This document shows positions 30,708 through 38,319 of a stretch of 43,188 bases of DNA, piece by piece. Position 1 is the first letter of the stretch, and every line of letters starts with the position of its first letter. Made by a program: the position numbers and the translations under genes. Where the stretch lies: NCBI GenBank assembly GCA_031292455.1, contig JARLHC010000159.1:1-43188 (forward strand), written 5' to 3'. The notes under the pieces were generated by a model that did not search any database, was not told the DNA's origin, and was given only the letters and a program-made list of their open reading frames with translations. The stretch comes from Ignavibacteriaceae bacterium. Its GTDB lineage: Bacteria; Bacteroidota; Ignavibacteria; Ignavibacteriales; Ignavibacteriaceae.

Positions 30708-30781
30708 TACGCCCAGGGGGAATCGAACCCTCAACCTTTGGAACCGGAATCCAACGTTCTATCCAATTGAACTATGGGCGC
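30708..30781 (-). tRNA. tRNA-Arg (anticodon CCG)
   Basis: 74 nt without an encoded CCA. The acceptor stem is GCGCCCA/TGGGCGT with one G-T pair. The D arm is GTTCAATTGGATAGAAC. The anticodon arm is TTGGA-TTCCGGT-TCCAA, giving anticodon CCG, which reads CGG. The T arm is GAGGG-TTCGATT-CCCCC with one A-C mismatch at its second pair. The discriminator is A. Confidence 0.93.
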
Positions 30782-31081: not shown

Positions 31082-31438
31082 ATGACCTGTGGCAATACCA
31101 CAGGATGCAGTAAAATGAAGAAGGTTAAAGAGATAATTATTTCAGATGTTGTTTTCAAGAATATATCCATTTTTGAATGGCTGATATATTTAATAGTTAT
31201 TTTTATTGCAATAAGTTCTTTAGGGATACAGACAAGATGGTGGTTTTTACAAAAGATATATCCTGCTGATTTTACAATTTATTATAATGCGGCGAACGGG
31301 AATTATCCTGACAGCCGGATGGAAAATATCAATCGGTCTTATGTCTTTTCTGTAGATTTTCAGCTATTTCTTTTATTGTTATGTTTTTTTCAACCAGAAG
31401 GACTAATAGATGATAAACAAGATCGGAGGTTTCATTGA
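31082..31438 (+). pseudogene. 5' fragment of a polytopic membrane protein (possibly GT87-like)
   Basis: The first about 80 codons encode a TM helix (FEWLIYLIVIFIAISSLGI) followed by WWFLQKIYPADFTIYYNAANG. This resembles the start of large membrane glycosyltransferases (DUF2029/GT87), where the first TM is followed by a D-x-x-x-Y-Y-N-A segment. From about 31329 the frame only runs antisense to hisIE. I read this as a gene truncated at its 3' end. A 7-bp hairpin (31086-31104) sits at the first ATG; ATG 31115 is an alternative start. Confidence 0.45.
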
Positions 31439-31952
31439 TAAGATCTTTTTTATTCCTGTCCATAGCCGCGATAACAGTTTCGATAGCTTCTTCACCCACT
31501 TTCTGAATAATCCTGTTCTCCCCTTCTTTAAAGAGTTTGGTAGTGTATGAATCTGCGGGCATATTTTTTTTTCTTGATTGAATTATACTATACAATTCAT
31601 TAATAAAGGAGATGCCGGGATATTGATCTTCTTTAAAGCATGAGTAGTCGCCTGTATGGCAAGTAGGGCCATCGGGGATTGCTCTTATGAGAAGCGTGTC
31701 GTCATCGCAGTCGCTTTTAATATCCACGACATTGAGGAAATTTCCGGAATTCTCCCCCTTGGTCCAGAGTTGTTTTCGACTTCTGCTATAGAAAGTAACC
31801 TTGCCGGTAGCGTTAGTAATGGAGAGTGATTCTTTGTTCATAAAGCCAACCATAAGGACAACGCCTGTATTATCATCAATTACGACTGCAGGCACCAGGC
31901 CATTGAGTCTATCATAGTTTAATTTCTCAGGAGAGAAGAGTATTTTTTTCAT
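31329..31952 (-). CDS. hisIE: Bifunctional phosphoribosyl-AMP cyclohydrolase / phosphoribosyl-ATP pyrophosphatase
   Basis: About 207 residues. The N-terminal HisI domain has SDCDDDTLLI and the Zn cysteines in GPTCHTGDYSC. The C-terminal HisE domain has the helical GEEAIETVIAAMDR signature. It carries out steps 2 and 3 of histidine synthesis. The ATG at 31952 (MKKILFSPEKL) is preferred; an in-frame ATG at 31967 would overlap hisF by 14 nt. It is the last gene of the operon, and its 3' end abuts the truncated plus-strand fragment. Confidence 0.94.
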   Translation of the reverse strand: MKKILFSPEKLNYDRLNGLVPAVVIDDNTGVVLMVGFMNKESLSITNATGKVTFYSRSRKQLWTKGENSGNFLNVVDIKSDCDDDTLLIRAIPDGPTCHTGDYSCFKEDQYPGISFINELYSIIQSRKKNMPADSYTTKLFKEGENRIIQKVGEEAIETVIAAMDRNKKDLINETSDLVYHLLVLLVEKNITIKEIAENLQKRHKTD

Positions 31953-31953
31953 A

Positions 31954-32709
31954 TTAAACCCGTACATGTATTTTATTTTGTTGAAGGTAATTTTTTAATT
32001 CTTTTATTTTTATTTCGCCAAAGTGGAAAAGAGTAGCTGCCAAACAGGCATCCACATTTGCATTATTAAAACAATCAAGGAAATGCTGCATGGAACCGGC
32101 GCCTCCAGAAGCGATAACAGGTATATTGACATTAGACGTTAACAATGAGAGGAAAGGGATATCGAAGCCCGATTTAGTTCCGTCTTTATCCATAGAAGTT
32201 AAAAGGATTTCGCCGGCACCCAGTTCTTCAACCTTTTTGCACCAGGGTAAACCTTCCAGAGCAGTTTCTTCAGTTCCCCCTTTTACAAAGACTTTGTACG
32301 AATTATTTATCTGTTTAATATCGATAGCAGCTACAATTGCCTGGCTACCGAATTGTTTTGAAGAACTTGTGATAAGCTGTGGATCAGTAACGATAGAGGA
32401 ATTAAGGGAGACTTTATCTGCGCCTGCTTTCAGGAGATTCTCAATATCTTTAAGATTACGGATTCCCCCGCCCACAGTAAATGGGATCTGAATAGCAGAG
32501 GCAATATCCTTAACAAGTTCAACCAGAGTTTTTCTTTTTTCAATTGAGGCAGTAATATCGAGAAACACCAGTTCATCAGCTCCTTCATTTGAATAGACTT
32601 CTGCAAGTTCAACTGCAGAGCCGGCATCCCGAAGGTTAATAAAGTTAATTCCTTTGACCACCCTGTTGTTTTTAACATCGAGGCATGGGATTATTCTTTT
32701 ACTAAGCAA
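31954..32709 (-). CDS. hisF: Imidazole glycerol phosphate synthase cyclase subunit
   Basis: 251 residues, a complete (beta/alpha)8 barrel. The catalytic Asp of the first strand is in IPCLDVKNNRVVKG and the second in VAAIDI. Phosphate loops are VGGGIRN and ASGGAGS. With HisH it makes imidazole glycerol phosphate and AICAR from PRFAR and glutamine-derived ammonia. It overlaps hisA by 8 nt. Confidence 0.97.
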   Translation of the reverse strand: MLSKRIIPCLDVKNNRVVKGINFINLRDAGSAVELAEVYSNEGADELVFLDITASIEKRKTLVELVKDIASAIQIPFTVGGGIRNLKDIENLLKAGADKVSLNSSIVTDPQLITSSSKQFGSQAIVAAIDIKQINNSYKVFVKGGTEETALEGLPWCKKVEELGAGEILLTSMDKDGTKSGFDIPFLSLLTSNVNIPVIASGGAGSMQHFLDCFNNANVDACLAATLFHFGEIKIKELKNYLQQNKIHVRV

Positions 32710-33418
32710 GGGTACTTAACTCCTTCAGGTCAATTGTATTTTCATAAATAGCTTTACCGACGACAGTACCATAAATATTCATTTTCATCAGAGTTTTGAT
32801 ATCCTGAATATCTTTTATTCCGCCAGAGGCAATCAAACTGATAGAGGGGTAATCCTTCATAATTTCTGAATAAAGCTGAGTATTAGTGCCCTGCAGGGTA
32901 CCATCTTTGGAAATATCAGTACAAAGGAACTGATTTATTCCAAGAGAGGAGCAATAGTCAATATGCTCATTAAGGGAGACGGAAGTAGTTTCGGTCCAAC
33001 CGTGAACAGCAATTTTCCTATTGTTTACATCGGCAGAAATAATAAATGACATCGGATTGTAAGCTTTGAGTATTGACTCAAACAACAGTTTATCTTTTAC
33101 AGCAAGAGAGCCAATAATAATCCTGTCAATACCTACCGATAACAATGACTGAATTGTTTCAGCATTTCTTATACCTCCGCCGAACTCAATTTCAAGGCGG
33201 GTTTTGTTTTTAATAGATTTTAATATTTCGAGGATAGTAACTTCACCTTTGGCGGAACCAAGAAGATCGACAATATGAATTCTTGTGAAACCGAAATCTG
33301 CGTACTGACAGGCTTGTTCAAGGGGTGAAAGAGGATAGTACTTAATTTGATTAAAATCCCCCCGGGTAAGCCGGACAGTTTTTTTATCATACACATCAAT
33401 AGCGGGTATAATTAACAT
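32702..33418 (-). CDS. hisA: ProFAR isomerase
   Basis: 238 residues, a half-barrel duplication like HisF. The first catalytic Asp is in IPAIDVYDKKTVRLTRGD and the second in ISADVNN. Phosphate loops are FGGGIRN and ASGGIKD. It isomerises ProFAR to PRFAR. It sits 12 bp after hisH and overlaps hisF. Confidence 0.97.
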   Translation of the reverse strand: MLIIPAIDVYDKKTVRLTRGDFNQIKYYPLSPLEQACQYADFGFTRIHIVDLLGSAKGEVTILEILKSIKNKTRLEIEFGGGIRNAETIQSLLSVGIDRIIIGSLAVKDKLLFESILKAYNPMSFIISADVNNRKIAVHGWTETTSVSLNEHIDYCSSLGINQFLCTDISKDGTLQGTNTQLYSEIMKDYPSISLIASGGIKDIQDIKTLMKMNIYGTVVGKAIYENTIDLKELSTLA

Positions 33419-33430
33419 TTGGTATATAAT

Positions 33431-34018
33431 TTAGCAATAATTGATAAAATTACTTAACACTTTAAGACCTGAGACAGAAGATTTTTCAGGATGGAACTGC
33501 ACACCGAAATAATTTTCTTTTTCGAGTGAAGCAGAGAAGCTGATTCTATTTTCAGTAACAGAAGTAGTTAACTGATCAACCGGAGCGTAATAAGAGTTTG
33601 CGAAATAGAAGAACTCATCCTGTTTTATATCCTTAAACAACTTATTGGCAGGTTTATAATGAACTGTATTCCAACCGATATGAGGGACTTTGGTTTCACT
33701 GCTTTTAAACCTGACAACCGATAAAGGGAAAATACCGAGTCCATTAACATTTCCTTCATCAGAATGATCACACATCAACTGCATACCAAGACAAATGCCG
33801 AGCATAGGTTTTTTTATTTCCCGGAGGAAACCGAATAGGTTATTATCATGCAATCTATTAACAGCAAAGGAGGCCTCACCAACACCGGGGAATATAATTT
33901 TTTCAGCTTTAACTAATTCGTGAATATCCGAAGTTATTATAAAAGAAAAGCCGAGTCGTGTTACTGCATTTGCCACTGAAGCGACATTTCCGGCACCGTA
34001 ATCAATAATAGCAATCAT
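33431..34018 (-). CDS. hisH: Imidazole glycerol phosphate synthase glutaminase subunit
   Basis: 195 residues. The class I amidotransferase triad is complete: Cys76 in GICLGMQLM, and His176 and Glu178 in QFHPEKSS. It feeds ammonia to HisF. It overlaps the hisB stop by 4 nt (ATGA). Confidence 0.97.
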   Translation of the reverse strand: MIAIIDYGAGNVASVANAVTRLGFSFIITSDIHELVKAEKIIFPGVGEASFAVNRLHDNNLFGFLREIKKPMLGICLGMQLMCDHSDEGNVNGLGIFPLSVVRFKSSETKVPHIGWNTVHYKPANKLFKDIKQDEFFYFANSYYAPVDQLTTSVTENRISFSASLEKENYFGVQFHPEKSSVSGLKVLSNFINYC

Positions 34019-34905
34019 AGAATGCCTTTAGTTGAGGGAAGGGACCCGGATGCACGCTGATCAAGTCTGCAGGCTTCATTCAATGCTTTAGCGAATGCCT
34101 TGAAGATAGCTTCAATTTTATGATGATCATTCTCCCCTGCTGACCTGAGATAGATATTTGCTTTCATACCAGAAGCCAAGGCGCGGAAGAATTCCTTAGT
34201 AAGTTCAGTAGGGAATTCACCTACCGTATTACGTTTAAAGTCTGCTTTGAAATTAAGAAAGGTACGTCCCCCGAGATCAATTGCACAATAAGCGGCTGAT
34301 TCATCCATTGGAAGGAAGAATCCATATCTTTTGATGCCAGCCTTATTGCCCATAGCTTCAGAGATTGCCCGGCCAAGGACAATGCCAGTGTCTTCAACGG
34401 TATGGTGTTCATCGACCTGAAGGTCGCCTTTAACATTAATATCAAGGAATATATTTCCATGTCTTGCAATCTGAGAAAGCATATGGTCAAAGAAACCTAT
34501 TCCTGTATTGATTGTACTTTCTTTTTTACTATCCAAAGAGACTTTAACTGAAATATCAGTTTCTTTTGTTTTTCTGATAATATGAGAGAACCTTAATTGT
34601 GAGATAATGAAACATGCAGCAGCTTCAAAAGAGGTAAACTTAGATTTATTATTTAATAATAATTGTTTCTTGCCTTTTGATGAAACGGAGTAATCATAAG
34701 TTAAATTCCTGCCTATTCGATTTAATGAAACTTTTTCCAATTTTAAGACCTTTAGCAGAAGAGGGTCCAGTTTAGCAAGGGAGGTATCGACATAAAGTTT
34801 GCAGCCATTGGATTGCAATGTTTTTAGCCCTGAGATGAGTCCTTCAGAACGGGAGGAGTTTAAGTCGAATATTCCTGAGTCGATTATTATTGTTTTCATT
34901 TGCAT
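34015..34905 (-). CDS. hisB: Imidazoleglycerol-phosphate dehydratase with a degenerate N-terminal HAD remnant
   Basis: 296 residues. Residues about 105-296 are a complete dehydratase with the metal-binding DEHHTVEDTG and ENDHHKIEA motifs. Residues 1-104 look like a decayed form of the histidinol-phosphatase domain of bifunctional HisB. TIIIDSGIF (5-13) corresponds to the FIDRDGT nucleophile motif but lacks the second Asp. GLKTLQSNGCKLYVDTS aligns with the ELLKLQKAGYKLVMITN region of E. coli HisB. The middle with the Zn cysteines is missing. The junction SHIIRKTKETDI matches the E. coli fusion point. Dehydratase activity is expected; phosphatase activity is not. Confidence 0.93.
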   Translation of the reverse strand: MQMKTIIIDSGIFDLNSSRSEGLISGLKTLQSNGCKLYVDTSLAKLDPLLLKVLKLEKVSLNRIGRNLTYDYSVSSKGKKQLLLNNKSKFTSFEAAACFIISQLRFSHIIRKTKETDISVKVSLDSKKESTINTGIGFFDHMLSQIARHGNIFLDINVKGDLQVDEHHTVEDTGIVLGRAISEAMGNKAGIKRYGFFLPMDESAAYCAIDLGGRTFLNFKADFKRNTVGEFPTELTKEFFRALASGMKANIYLRSAGENDHHKIEAIFKAFAKALNEACRLDQRASGSLPSTKGIL

Positions 34906-34907
34906 TT

Positions 34908-35960
34908 CTATTTATTTAATGCTTTTTGTAATAAACTGATTAATTTTATATTCTGATCATGAGTACCAACGGTAATACGGAGGCAATTTTCCAGATTGGG
35001 CTGATTGCTTCTATCGCGAATTATAATTCCTTCATCTGCTATTTTTTTCTGAATTACGGAGGCATTTTTAATCCTGATCAGGATGTAATTAGTATCCGAA
35101 GGAAAAATCTTTTCTATGCCGTTTAATTTATTTAATTCATTTATAAGAAACTGTTTTTCTGAAAGGATAGAGGTAACAAATCCATCCTTTTTACTGATAT
35201 TCGAAAATGCTACCTGGAAAGCTTTTCTTGTAAGAGAATTTATATTGTAGGGAGCTTTAATCTTAAAGAGATAGTTAATTATTTCCTCATCAGCTATACA
35301 ATAACCAAGCCGGATAGCTGCCAGGCCCCAGGCTTTAGAGAATGTTCTTAACAAAACGAGATTGGGAAATTCATTTAATAAACCGATGCAGGAGTTTTCT
35401 TCACCGGCGAAATCAATATAGGCCTCATCTACAACAATTATGGAATTGATCTTTTGCAAAAGTGTCCTTATGGATTCTTTATTTAACAGATTACCAGTAG
35501 GATTATTGGGCGAACAAAGGAAAATAATCTTAATGCTGTTATTCCAATTATTTATAACTGTTTCTGTATCAATATTAAAATCTTTATTCAAGAGTATGGT
35601 ATTTGATTTTACGTCATTTATATCGGCAGCCACTTTATACATCCCGTAGGTCGGTTCAAGGATCATGATAGAATCGTGCCCAGGTACACAGAATATCCTT
35701 ATAAGAAGATCAATAATTTCATCTGACCCAACGCCAAAGAACAACTTATTAAATGTTACGCCCAAGTATTCGCTTAAACGTTTGCGCATTGACAACTGAA
35801 GAGGGTCAGGATACCGGTTCAGCAATTCACCAGATGAATCAACAACAGAGCCGAAGGAATTTTCATTAGCATCGAGAAGAATTCCATGATTATAGATATC
35901 CCTTGCGGAAGTATAGGGTTTGAGATCTTTTATATTTTTTCTGATTAATTCCTGTATCAT
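34908..35960 (-). CDS. hisC: Histidinol-phosphate aminotransferase
   Basis: 350 residues of the class I/II PLP aminotransferases. The Schiff-base Lys is in TFSKAWGLAAIRLGY. CSPNNPTGN and the late Arg in CLRITVGT (substrate carboxylate/phosphate side) are present. It converts imidazole acetol phosphate to histidinol phosphate. It overlaps hisD by 4 nt and sits 2 bp before hisB. Confidence 0.96.
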   Translation of the reverse strand: MIQELIRKNIKDLKPYTSARDIYNHGILLDANENSFGSVVDSSGELLNRYPDPLQLSMRKRLSEYLGVTFNKLFFGVGSDEIIDLLIRIFCVPGHDSIMILEPTYGMYKVAADINDVKSNTILLNKDFNIDTETVINNWNNSIKIIFLCSPNNPTGNLLNKESIRTLLQKINSIIVVDEAYIDFAGEENSCIGLLNEFPNLVLLRTFSKAWGLAAIRLGYCIADEEIINYLFKIKAPYNINSLTRKAFQVAFSNISKKDGFVTSILSEKQFLINELNKLNGIEKIFPSDTNYILIRIKNASVIQKKIADEGIIIRDRSNQPNLENCLRITVGTHDQNIKLISLLQKALNK

Positions 35961-37243
35961 TTTTTCAGCCTTATTGTGACAGCATTTTTATGAGCAAATA
36001 ATCCTTCCTCAATGGCAAGAGTTTCGACAGCCGCGGATATATGACTGAGACCGTCTTTAGTTAATGATTGAAATGAAACAGCCTTCATAAAGAACTCCAC
36101 GCTGACACCGCCGAAGGAGCGGGCAAATCCGGAAGTCGGCAGAGAATGGTTAGTCCCTGATGCATAGTCACCAGCACTTTCGGGGGAATATTCTCCAAGG
36201 AAGACAGAGCCAGCGTTCCTGATATAATCAACAAACTGATCGGGTTGTTTTACATTCAAAATCAAATGTTCAGGAGCGTATACGTTACTAAAGTTTAAAG
36301 CATCGGTGACAGTATCCGTTATAAGCATGAAAGAGTTCCCCAATGATTTTTCAGCGATGTTTTTTCGTGGAAGGAGTGAAAGCTGCAGCTCAAGTTCCTT
36401 CTCAACCTCAACTGCTTTTTCTTCTGAAGTTGTTACAAGAATTACCTGTGAATCTTCTCCATGTTCTGCCTGTGAAAGGAGATCGGAGGCAATAAATGAG
36501 GGGTCAGCGTACTGATCAGATATAACGAGCAATTCGCTGGGGCCTGCAGGCATATCTATTGCGCATCCTTCCGGATCGATACTAACGAGAAGTTTTGCAG
36601 CAGTAACATACTGATTGCCGGGTCCGAATATTTTATCCACTTTATGGAATGAAGAATCGCCAAAGGCGAGGAGACCTATTCCCTGAGCTCCGCCAATTTT
36701 AATTATTTCTTTTATGCCGCATAATCCGGCAGCATACAAGATTGCAGGATTGATGTGGTCTCCCTTAACAGGAGTAGCTAATACTATTCTAGGGCAGGCG
36801 GCTATCCGGGCCGGGATACCTAACATAAGTACGGTGGACGGGAGGACTGCGTTACCTCCGGGAATATATAATCCGACATTATCGATGGGCCGGAATTCCC
36901 GTGAACATATAATACCCGGCAGGGTTTCTTTCCTGATTTTATTTGGGACTTCTTCCTTATGAAAAGCAAATATATTAGAATAAGCAGTTTCGAGGGCCTT
37001 CTTAACTTTTGGGTTAAGTGATTTTTCGGCTTCCAGAATTTCATTATCAGAGACATAGACTGAATTTGAGGAGAAACCATCAAACTGTTTTGCATATTTA
37101 ACTGCGGCCTGCAAACCATTGTTCTTAATATCTTCAAGAACGGGTTTTATTATAGTGAATGTCTTTTCAAAATCGACTGCCGGACGCTTTGTAAGTCCAG
37201 ATATTTCCTGTTCATTCAAATTGTTTAATTTAAAACATTTCAT
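35957..37243 (-). CDS. hisD: Histidinol dehydrogenase
   Basis: 428 residues, standard length. Conserved segments include VGLYIPGGNAVLPSTVLM, GPGNQYVTAAK, DMPAGPSE, the metal and catalytic region LSQAEHGEDSQ, and YAPEHL. It performs the last two NAD-dependent steps to histidine. ATGA overlaps on both sides link it to hisG and hisC. Confidence 0.97.
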   Translation of the reverse strand: MKCFKLNNLNEQEISGLTKRPAVDFEKTFTIIKPVLEDIKNNGLQAAVKYAKQFDGFSSNSVYVSDNEILEAEKSLNPKVKKALETAYSNIFAFHKEEVPNKIRKETLPGIICSREFRPIDNVGLYIPGGNAVLPSTVLMLGIPARIAACPRIVLATPVKGDHINPAILYAAGLCGIKEIIKIGGAQGIGLLAFGDSSFHKVDKIFGPGNQYVTAAKLLVSIDPEGCAIDMPAGPSELLVISDQYADPSFIASDLLSQAEHGEDSQVILVTTSEEKAVEVEKELELQLSLLPRKNIAEKSLGNSFMLITDTVTDALNFSNVYAPEHLILNVKQPDQFVDYIRNAGSVFLGEYSPESAGDYASGTNHSLPTSGFARSFGGVSVEFFMKAVSFQSLTKDGLSHISAAVETLAIEEGLFAHKNAVTIRLKK

Positions 37244-38118
37244 GGGATCATATTCTCAATTGGTAATAAAAGAATTCCAGTAGCCCCCAGGCTTTTCAGT
37301 GAATCTACTATTTTCCACAGGTAACCGGAAGGAATTACAGCATGGACAGCGACCAATTTCTCATCTGCCAATGGAAGAATTGTAGGGCTTTTAATAGAAG
37401 GGATTACCTTCTCTATTTTTTCAAGTGAAGATTTAGGCACATTCATCATCAGATACCTGGAATTTTTAGCTGTAAGTACAGACTTGATCCTCCTGTGAAG
37501 TTCATCCAGGTATTTTTTCTTTTGCGGATTTAATTCCCTGCTGGCCGAGCTAATGAGTACTGCCTGGGATTCAAACACGCTAATAGATTTTTTTAATTTA
37601 TTCATCATGAGGGTATTGCCAGTAGAAACGATATCGCAGATAATATCGGCTACACCGAGTGCGGGTGCAATTTCAACCGATCCGCTGATCTCAATTATCT
37701 TTGCGTTTATCTTATTTTCGGTAAGATAATTCTGCACAATTCTCGGAAAGGAAGTGGCAATAGTTTTGCCTTCAATATCCTTGACGGATTTTATCGAAAT
37801 ATTCTCAGGAGCGGCCATCATAAGGGAGCATTTACCGAATCCAAGTTTTTCAACGATTCTTGTCTGGGCATTTTTTGCAACCAGGACGTTTTCGCCGACG
37901 ATACCGATATCGGCAACGCCGTCCTGAACATATTCCGGGATATCATCATCTCTCAGAAAAAGTATTTCAAGAGGGAAATTATAAGCAGGAACCACCAAAC
38001 GTTCGGAATAATTGTCTATTTCCACTCCACATAATTTTATGAGTTCGATAGATTTTTCTGTTAATCTTCCCTTTTTCTGAATTGCTAATTTAAGATTTCC
38101 ATTGTTTGAAACTGACAT
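37240..38118 (-). CDS. hisG: ATP phosphoribosyltransferase, long form
   Basis: 292 residues from the ATG at 38118, which has AAGGTGA (38126-38132) seven bases upstream. The core opens LKLAIQKKGRLTEKSIELIKL and includes the PRPP loop near DIICDIVSTGNTLMMN. The C-terminal about 80 residues are the regulatory HisG_C domain of the long, HisZ-independent form, so histidine feedback is expected. The open frame extends to 38178 (MNPGNK...), but those codons are the attenuator terminator itself and should not be taken as protein. Confidence 0.95.
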   Translation of the reverse strand: MSVSNNGNLKLAIQKKGRLTEKSIELIKLCGVEIDNYSERLVVPAYNFPLEILFLRDDDIPEYVQDGVADIGIVGENVLVAKNAQTRIVEKLGFGKCSLMMAAPENISIKSVKDIEGKTIATSFPRIVQNYLTENKINAKIIEISGSVEIAPALGVADIICDIVSTGNTLMMNKLKKSISVFESQAVLISSASRELNPQKKKYLDELHRRIKSVLTAKNSRYLMMNVPKSSLEKIEKVIPSIKSPTILPLADEKLVAVHAVIPSGYLWKIVDSLKSLGATGILLLPIENMIP

Positions 38119-38152
38119 GCTTAGATCACCTTTATTTTTATATAAAACAAAA

Positions 38153-38175
38153 AACCCCGACTTATTGCCGGGGTT
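38153..38175 (-). terminator. his operon attenuator terminator
   Basis: The minus strand reads AACCCCG-nine-base loop-CGGGGTT followed by TTTTGTTTTAT, a classic intrinsic terminator located before the operon's first gene. Its 5' arm with flank (AACCCCGGCA, 38175-38166) can instead pair with TGTCGGCGTT at the end of the leader ORF (38214-38205): nine of ten positions pair, counting one G-U. That is the competing antiterminator. Confidence 0.88.
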
Positions 38176-38202
38176 CATAATTTCTTTAATACAGGATATA
38201 TT

Positions 38203-38268
38203 TCAACGCCGACACATTATATGTGAATGAAAATGATGATGGCGATGATATAAACTATTAAAATTCAT
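38203..38268 (-). CDS. hisL: his operon leader peptide
   Basis: 21 codons. Residues 8-16 read HRHHHFHSH, six His in nine, far above chance. The stop lies 27 nt before the terminator's 5' arm. A pause hairpin can form within the ORF: CGCC (38244-38241) with GGCG (38210-38207) and CACAT (38225-38221) with ATGTG (38217-38213). Stalling at His codons would break it and free TGTCGGCGTT to act as antiterminator; full translation would cover that segment and allow termination. No Shine-Dalgarno is seen, only an A-rich leader. Confidence 0.88.
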   Translation of the reverse strand: MNFNSLYHRHHHFHSHIMCRR

Positions 38269-38290
38269 TTTTATTATTTTCTTAGGGTAA

Positions 38291-38319
38291 AATCTAAGAT
38301 AATCCGGATAAAAAGTCAA
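38291..38319 (-). promoter_or_regulatory. Promoter of the his operon
   Basis: The minus strand shows TTGACT (38319-38314), a 17-bp spacer, and TAGATT (38296-38291), ending 22 bp before the leader ATG. It is a good sigma-70-type match in the position required for the attenuator. The -10 hexamer is imperfect. Confidence 0.55.

Follow-up and report, generated by a model that had tools for sequence, protein, structure and literature searches.

A putative ribosome-mediated attenuator upstream of the histidine operon in an Ignavibacteriaceae bacterium and its Bacteroidota relatives

Described histidine leaders and the operon of the window

Classical attenuation of histidine biosynthesis is exemplified by enterobacterial hisL, in which a leader ORF with a run of His codons lies upstream of hisG and is followed by a T-tailed terminator, while the end of the leader can pair with the 5' arm of the terminator to give an antiterminator (an anatomy drawn partly from general knowledge and partly from the section of PMC9413887 concerned). 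These elements all recur in the locus studied here. His leader peptides have also been published for Firmicutes, namely for the Bacillus cereus group, Peptostreptococcaceae and Erysipelotrichales (relevant sections of PMC2965389 and PMC9413887). They likewise combine a His-rich leader with a terminator and, in PMC9413887, also with an antiterminator; unlike our locus, they belong to another phylum and stand upstream of his operons or of hisZ/hisS relatives, and the His leaders of Firmicutes and Bacteroidota are likely of separate origin. Within the phylum, the pertinent parts of PMC9723704 report strong hints that amino-acid operons of Flavobacterium psychrophilum are attenuated through leader peptides. 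They also describe a conserved structured element 5' of hisG in Flavobacteriaceae, which has no Rfam match. This element shares gene and phylum with ours, and the section of PMC9723704 that describes it does so without a peptide, competing helices, or lineages beyond Flavobacteriaceae. Short ORFs resembling leader peptides are described for Bacteroides in a section of PMC7366714, and the sections of PMC8305728 on the his genes of this superphylum mention attenuation once, in the account of enterobacteria. Regarding leader-peptide attenuation in Bacteroidetes together with histidine, only PMC4833913 was relevant by its title among the matches listed. For amino-acid operon control in Ignavibacteria, no account was found among the literature matches listed, subscription journals being mostly outside the scope of that search. 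The comparative study of Lopatovskaya et al. 2010 is said perhaps to predict such attenuators in Bacteroidetes/Chlorobi already; if so, the novelty of his attenuators in Bacteroidota would be lower still.

The window analyzed here is the whole stretch of 43,188 nt of contig JARLHC010000159.1 from an Ignavibacteriaceae bacterium, whose genome (G000) comprises 171 contigs and is 96.7% complete. The closest named genome is that of Ignavibacteriales bacterium fen_1302, with a HisG identity of 89%, followed by other Ignavibacteriales and by Melioribacteraceae. The his operon lies on the minus strand and starts with hisG (37240..38118), assigned from the ORF list and Pfam domains as the long form with a HisG_C domain. 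Seven further his genes follow (31329..37243, minus strand), whose names were inferred from Pfam domains and gene order: hisD (37243-35957), hisC (35960-34908), hisB (34905-34015), hisH (34018-33431), hisA (33418-32702), hisF (32709-31954) and hisIE (31967-31329). All eight ORFs carry the Pfam domains expected for HisG, HisD, HisC, HisB, HisH, HisA, HisF and HisIE. The start of hisG is the ATG at 38118, with GGTGAT just before it, and the same start is found in the nearest relative; an alternative in-frame ATG at 38178 would give a hisG of 312 amino acids that reads through the terminator.

A few further features of the region were noted. None of the eight his ORFs showed a Pfam domain for histidinol-phosphate phosphatase, which makes the protein of a PHP-domain gene (PF02811; 38374-39423, minus strand), adjoining the operon on its upstream side, a candidate for this function. 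HisB (34015-34905, minus strand) has approximately 130 residues ahead of its IGPD domain without a Pfam match, possibly, as a guess, a worn phosphatase domain. A tRNA gene is located at 30708-30781 on the minus strand, approximately 550 bases downstream of hisIE.

With a probability of roughly 93%, we read the region in front of hisG as a ribosome-mediated transcription attenuator of this operon, that is, as a leader switch that very probably turns the his genes off when histidine is plentiful. A ribosome-stalling His attenuator in an Ignavibacteria lineage had already been proposed in a sequence-only reading of the window, and this core claim finds good support in conservation and in the changes seen among relatives. 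The predicted mechanism is the classical ribosome-mediated attenuation of enterobacterial hisL, here conserved through much of Bacteroidota. In contrast to hisL, the six His codons of the window's leader are interrupted by others, the promoter is of the Bacteroidota type, and a pairing within the leader is unconserved in relatives.

The His-rich leader ORF and its promoter

The leader ORF, MNFNSLYHRHHHFHSHIMCRR, can be read directly from the sequence as 21 codons plus stop (38268-38203, minus strand). Its His codons are numbers 8, 10, 11, 12, 14 and 16 (38247-38221), which places six His within residues 8-16, exactly as the sequence-only reading had it. Conservation of this ORF upstream of hisG had been named there as a check, and a search of 59 genomes, with that of the window among them, gave a HisG match in 39; one of these was truncated at a contig end and was set aside, which left 38 upstream regions. 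Counting as His-rich any ORF with at least 3 His per 10 residues, 37 of the 38 loci of the order (window counted) carry one, ending 62-111 bases upstream of the matched hisG start. L036, apparently on the same contig as L102, is a relative without such a leader. In a second set of named loci, which overlaps the first, the count was 78 of 80, including one taken as a chance match (L092, the end of an ORF that resembles TrpR by eye), which was kept in this count and in the pooled one below. L039-L090 were counted as Ignavibacteriales together with L001-L038, some of the records carrying wider names (Bacteroidetes or Chlorobiota bacterium).

For controlled counts, nonredundant sets were formed by removing near-identical copies and any upstream region of less than 300 bases, which reduced 238 regions to 205. 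Both sets pooled gave 94 regions, and a His-rich ORF was present in 92 of them on the sense strand, in 3 on the antisense strand and in 3-6 after dinucleotide-preserving shuffling (three rounds), so that the ORF is indeed conserved in relatives. With the stricter rule of at least 4 His in 10 residues, 84 of 94 remained, against 0 in antisense and 0 in shuffles. Among ATG ORFs upstream of hisG in the same 94 regions, richness in His was by far the most frequent (83), followed by Ile (16) and Leu (10). A sample across the phylum yielded a His-rich ORF upstream of hisG in 83 of 120 loci and none in 37; nonredundantly, these were 74 of 111 in sense, compared to 4 in antisense and 9-14 in shuffles. 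This sample, like the 165 leader loci used below, includes some long or distant ORFs, perhaps chance matches, which were kept in. Among the few genomes sampled for each, no His-rich leader was found in several families, for example f4, f10, f17, f22, f24, f25 and f27. Judged by these counts, the leader is spread through the sampled Ignavibacteriales and many other Bacteroidota families, and the window is not an isolated case.

The ORF could in principle encode a stable His-rich, metal-binding peptide with a function of its own, and several of the peptides do hold five to seven His per ten residues. We assign this reading an almost negligible likelihood, as the N-termini are highly variable, the ORF keeps its place with respect to hisG, its end follows the needs of RNA pairing, and the corresponding leaders of trpE have Trp instead. 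Similarly, the operon might be controlled by another RNA sensor, a T-box or a riboswitch, with the ORF being incidental; his genes of Firmicutes are under T-box control according to the section of PMC9413887 in question. Here, conservation centers on the His-rich ORF itself, and a tRNA is the only family to reach an Rfam threshold in the window as well as in a scan of 19 related loci together with that of the window, which leaves this reading with hardly any probability. The Rfam leader families are also below threshold in the window and the 19 related loci, the window scoring 23.1 bits for RF00514 His_leader (threshold 49) and 28.1 bits for RF00506 Thr_leader (threshold 55); such sub-threshold scores carry no weight in the present reading.

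Upstream of the leader, a putative promoter (38289..38319, minus strand) was located by consensus score, consisting of TTG (38319-38317), a 20-base spacer and TAGATTTT (38296-38289). It matches the Bacteroidota type TTG/TAnnTTTG, whose -7 consensus is given in a section of PMC9723704, at 8 of 9 specified positions, compared to 9 of 12 for the E. coli type. The site TTGACT-17-TAGATT, proposed before as the promoter, is present at 38319-38291, but the Bacteroidota type fits better and is the one enriched in relatives. Over 62 loci of L001-L090, the mean score of the Bacteroidota-type site was 8.5 of 9 against 6.8 in shuffles, whereas the E. coli-type site reached 9.0 of 12 against 8.5; between 37500 and 39000 in the window, 7 E. 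coli-type sites were found against 5.4 +/- 2.7 in shuffles, which is not above chance. In 46 of the 55 best-scoring loci, the second promoter box ends 8-29 bases upstream of the leader start.

This promoter also bears on the simplest objection, namely that the stem-loop before hisG does no more than terminate the PHP-domain gene upstream or a short RNA, the His codons being there by chance. The PHP gene does lie on the same strand and ends approximately 105 bases ahead of the leader. Nevertheless, a promoter type enriched in relatives stands between the two, 92 of 94 regions have a His-rich ORF compared to 3-6 after shuffling, and leader end and terminator arm are matched across loci, so that we regard this explanation as extremely unlikely.

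Terminator, antiterminator and within-leader pairing

The intrinsic terminator claimed between the leader ORF and hisG is present: hairpin search and folding gave a stem of 10 pairs (38176-38152, minus strand) and a T tract, the whole spanning 38176-38149. On its own it folds at -16.5 kcal/mol, a value equaled by none of 200 shuffles, and the whole leader (38285-38128) has a fold z of -3.9, again matched by 0 of 200. Segment 3, AACCCCGGCA (38166..38175, minus strand; hairpin search, pairing test and alignment), comprises the terminator 5' arm and the first loop base and is common to both competing helices, and segment 4, TCGGGGTTTTTT (38149..38160, minus strand; hairpin search, folding and alignment), comprises the 3' arm and the T tract. 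Of 165 nonredundant leader loci, 112 have a T-tailed terminator downstream of the leader (119 under a relaxed rule), and among L001-L090 the count is 64 of 67. The 5' arm varies by clade, being ACCCCGGC in Ignavibacteriales, GGGCTTACC or GGGCTTGCC in Chitinophagales loci and ACCCGTTTGAG in family f31, which is perhaps Flavobacteriaceae and is taken as such here, and the leader end varies along with it between clades.

This leader end harbors segment 2, TGTCGGCGTT (38205..38214, minus strand), formed by the last leader codons and assigned by a direct pairing test and the alignment of relatives. As claimed in the sequence-only reading, nine of ten positions are paired between TGTCGGCGTT (38214-38205) and AACCCCGGCA (38175-38166); one of these nine is a G-U pair. 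Tested directly, this pairing was equaled by 2 of 100 shuffles, while the stretch 38230-38160 folded alone was not above shuffles (80 of 200 as good); support for the antiterminator of the window hence comes from the direct test and the relatives, not from the isolated fold. Across loci, pairing of the leader end with the terminator 5' arm beats at least 96 of 100 mononucleotide shuffles in 87 of 112 cases, and the pairing region is mostly located downstream of the final His codon and near the stop, a part of the leader that would be masked by a ribosome that has arrived at the stop codon. Cognate combinations pair better than non-cognate ones, with means of -12.34 and -8.93 kcal/mol over the 112 loci. 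Within the 64 loci of L001-L090 the advantage is modest (-11.77 vs -10.20 kcal/mol), and for the median locus there 26% of the other loci's leader ends pair equally well, because segment 3 is nearly invariant in this group.

Matched changes were counted in a MAFFT alignment of these 64 related sequences. The terminator helix is paired in 91.0% of cells with 28 two-sided changes, compared to 85.7% and 8.6 in shuffles, and the seven-pair antiterminator in 83.1% of cells with 29 such changes, compared to 78.2% and 15.6; the observed values were reached by 0 of 500 shuffles in either case, and slid registers of the antiterminator gave only 20-49% paired. The measures least misled by relatedness are the counts of pairs with such changes and of pair types. 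By these, the terminator exceeds shuffles in pairs (5; 9 of 500 shuffles as high) but not in types (13; 67 of 500), and the antiterminator has no clear excess in either (4 pairs, 130 of 500; 13 types, 83 of 500). The antiterminator figures are lowered because some rows, that of the window included, are out of register at segment 2 at the leader end. After re-anchoring, which was feasible for 66 of 67 rows, the antiterminator is confined to bases of the loop and the half of the 5' arm next to it; as this register was chosen to favor pairing, the counts obtained with it are illustrative.

A third pairing lies within the leader itself, with CGCC (38241..38244, minus strand) as its 5' side and GGCG (38210-38207) as partner, accompanied by a second pairing of CACAT (38225-38221) with ATGTG (38217-38213). 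It is strong in the window, where 0 of 100 shuffles were as good, and ordinary in the sister genome, that of the nearest relative (48 of 100). Of 87 loci, 19 reached the 5% level and the median z was -0.4, which is somewhat above chance; for want of conservation, we rejected it as a general design element. Accordingly, the three mutually exclusive pairings described at the outset can all be found in the window, but only two of them are conserved, antiterminator and terminator, and it is for these that matched changes were obtained over the 64 rows. The term "complete hisL logic" is thus too strong for this locus.

Taken as a ribosome-mediated attenuator, the locus has a codon run in its leader ORF that matches the operon, an intrinsic terminator between leader and first gene, and an antiterminator with pairing, position and matched changes, which a ribosome at the stop codon would exclude. 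In the switch that we propose, RNA polymerase would start shortly upstream of the leader ORF with the ribosome trailing it. With ample charged tRNA-His, the ribosome would proceed to the stop codon and cover segment 2, segments 3 and 4 would pair, and transcription would end at the terminator approximately 30 bases upstream of hisG. If charged tRNA-His runs short, the ribosome would stall on the early His codons (8-12) and leave segment 2 free to pair with the loop-side half of segment 3, so that no terminator would form and the eight his genes would be transcribed. The geometry deserves attention here, as His codon 16, the last one, extends to 38221 and segment 2 begins at 38214. A ribosome shadows roughly 12-15 bases, and because of this footprint a stall at codons 8-12 would free segment 2 and a ribosome at the stop codon would cover it, in line with the classical logic. 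Transcription start, stalling, histidine dependence and termination itself are predictions from the sequence.

Loci without a recognizable terminator and leaders of other operons

No T-tailed terminator hairpin was found in 46 of the 165 leader loci, even by the relaxed rule. Of these, 34 are either Pedobacter-like (19) or from family f33 (15). Loci of this kind include L091, L093, L095, L098-L100, L106, L107, L109, L112-L115 and L118 (Pedobacter, Hufsiella and relatives), L212, L218, L220, L222 and L227, and also members of families f33, f38, f48 and f53. Over the 46 loci, the spacer is rich in C and poor in G (0.216 and 0.114, respectively) compared to loci with a terminator (0.151 and 0.183). 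Pedobacter-like loci have two small conserved hairpins near the leader end, CATCGCC..GGCGATG and GTTTTGTACTTCAAAAC, and their conserved elements yielded no convincing alternative structure. Another output may exist at these 46 loci, possibly a Rho-dependent or translational one. The same loci, mostly of other clades, could be taken as a hint that the leader controls the translation of hisG, its start being hidden or freed, rather than the end of transcription, and attenuators with a structure that hides the ribosome site in place of a terminator are described in a section of PMC9413887. For the window such control is very unlikely, as stem and T tract are present there and in 64 of 67 loci of L001-L090.

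Leaders of a corresponding kind precede trpE in relatives. TrpE was matched in 22 of 31 genomes searched, the window's own genome giving no match, and the upstream regions (L239-L260, Ignavibacteriales) contain a Trp-rich leader in 21 of 22 loci, compared to 0 in antisense and 2 of 66 in shuffles; the leader amino acid therefore matches the operon. A strong terminator follows in all 21. In the test that works for his, 0 of the 21 leader ends paired with the terminator 5' arm. With the terminator loop and 3' arm, 11 of 21 paired at the 5% level, a post hoc result noticed by inspection, and this mirrored test gave 19 of 112 at the his loci; the trpE leaders of relatives thus seem, post hoc, to pair with the terminator's other arm. 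Short ORFs rich in Thr/Ile were found upstream of aspartokinase-homoserine dehydrogenase genes in 4 of 17 regions at the threshold applied (Thr-rich in L284, L285, L287 and L288), and none precedes L281, the one examined of two such genes in the window's genome. Because the 4 of 17 is a raw count, attenuation is not claimed for these genes.

A joint reading of these data, which we offer tentatively and rate at somewhat below even odds, would regard the His leader as an old Bacteroidota sensor whose output was exchanged in evolution between an intrinsic terminator and Rho-dependent or translational control, with a mirrored trp leader in the window's order. Ignavibacteriales, Chitinophagales and others (perhaps Flavobacteriaceae) would use the terminator with a clade-specific matched arm, while Pedobacter-like loci and several other families would have kept the peptide and lost the terminator, relying on a C-rich, G-poor spacer or on small conserved hairpins. 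The antiterminator of the trp leader would be mirrored in that it captures the terminator loop and 3' arm.

For the biology of the group, the leader in 83 of 120 sampled loci predicts histidine control of his operons in a large part of the phylum. The comparative set assembled here would provide cases of translation-coupled attenuation working with a Bacteroidota-type promoter, and the natural variants without a recognizable terminator may serve as a test of how a leader peptide can drive another output.
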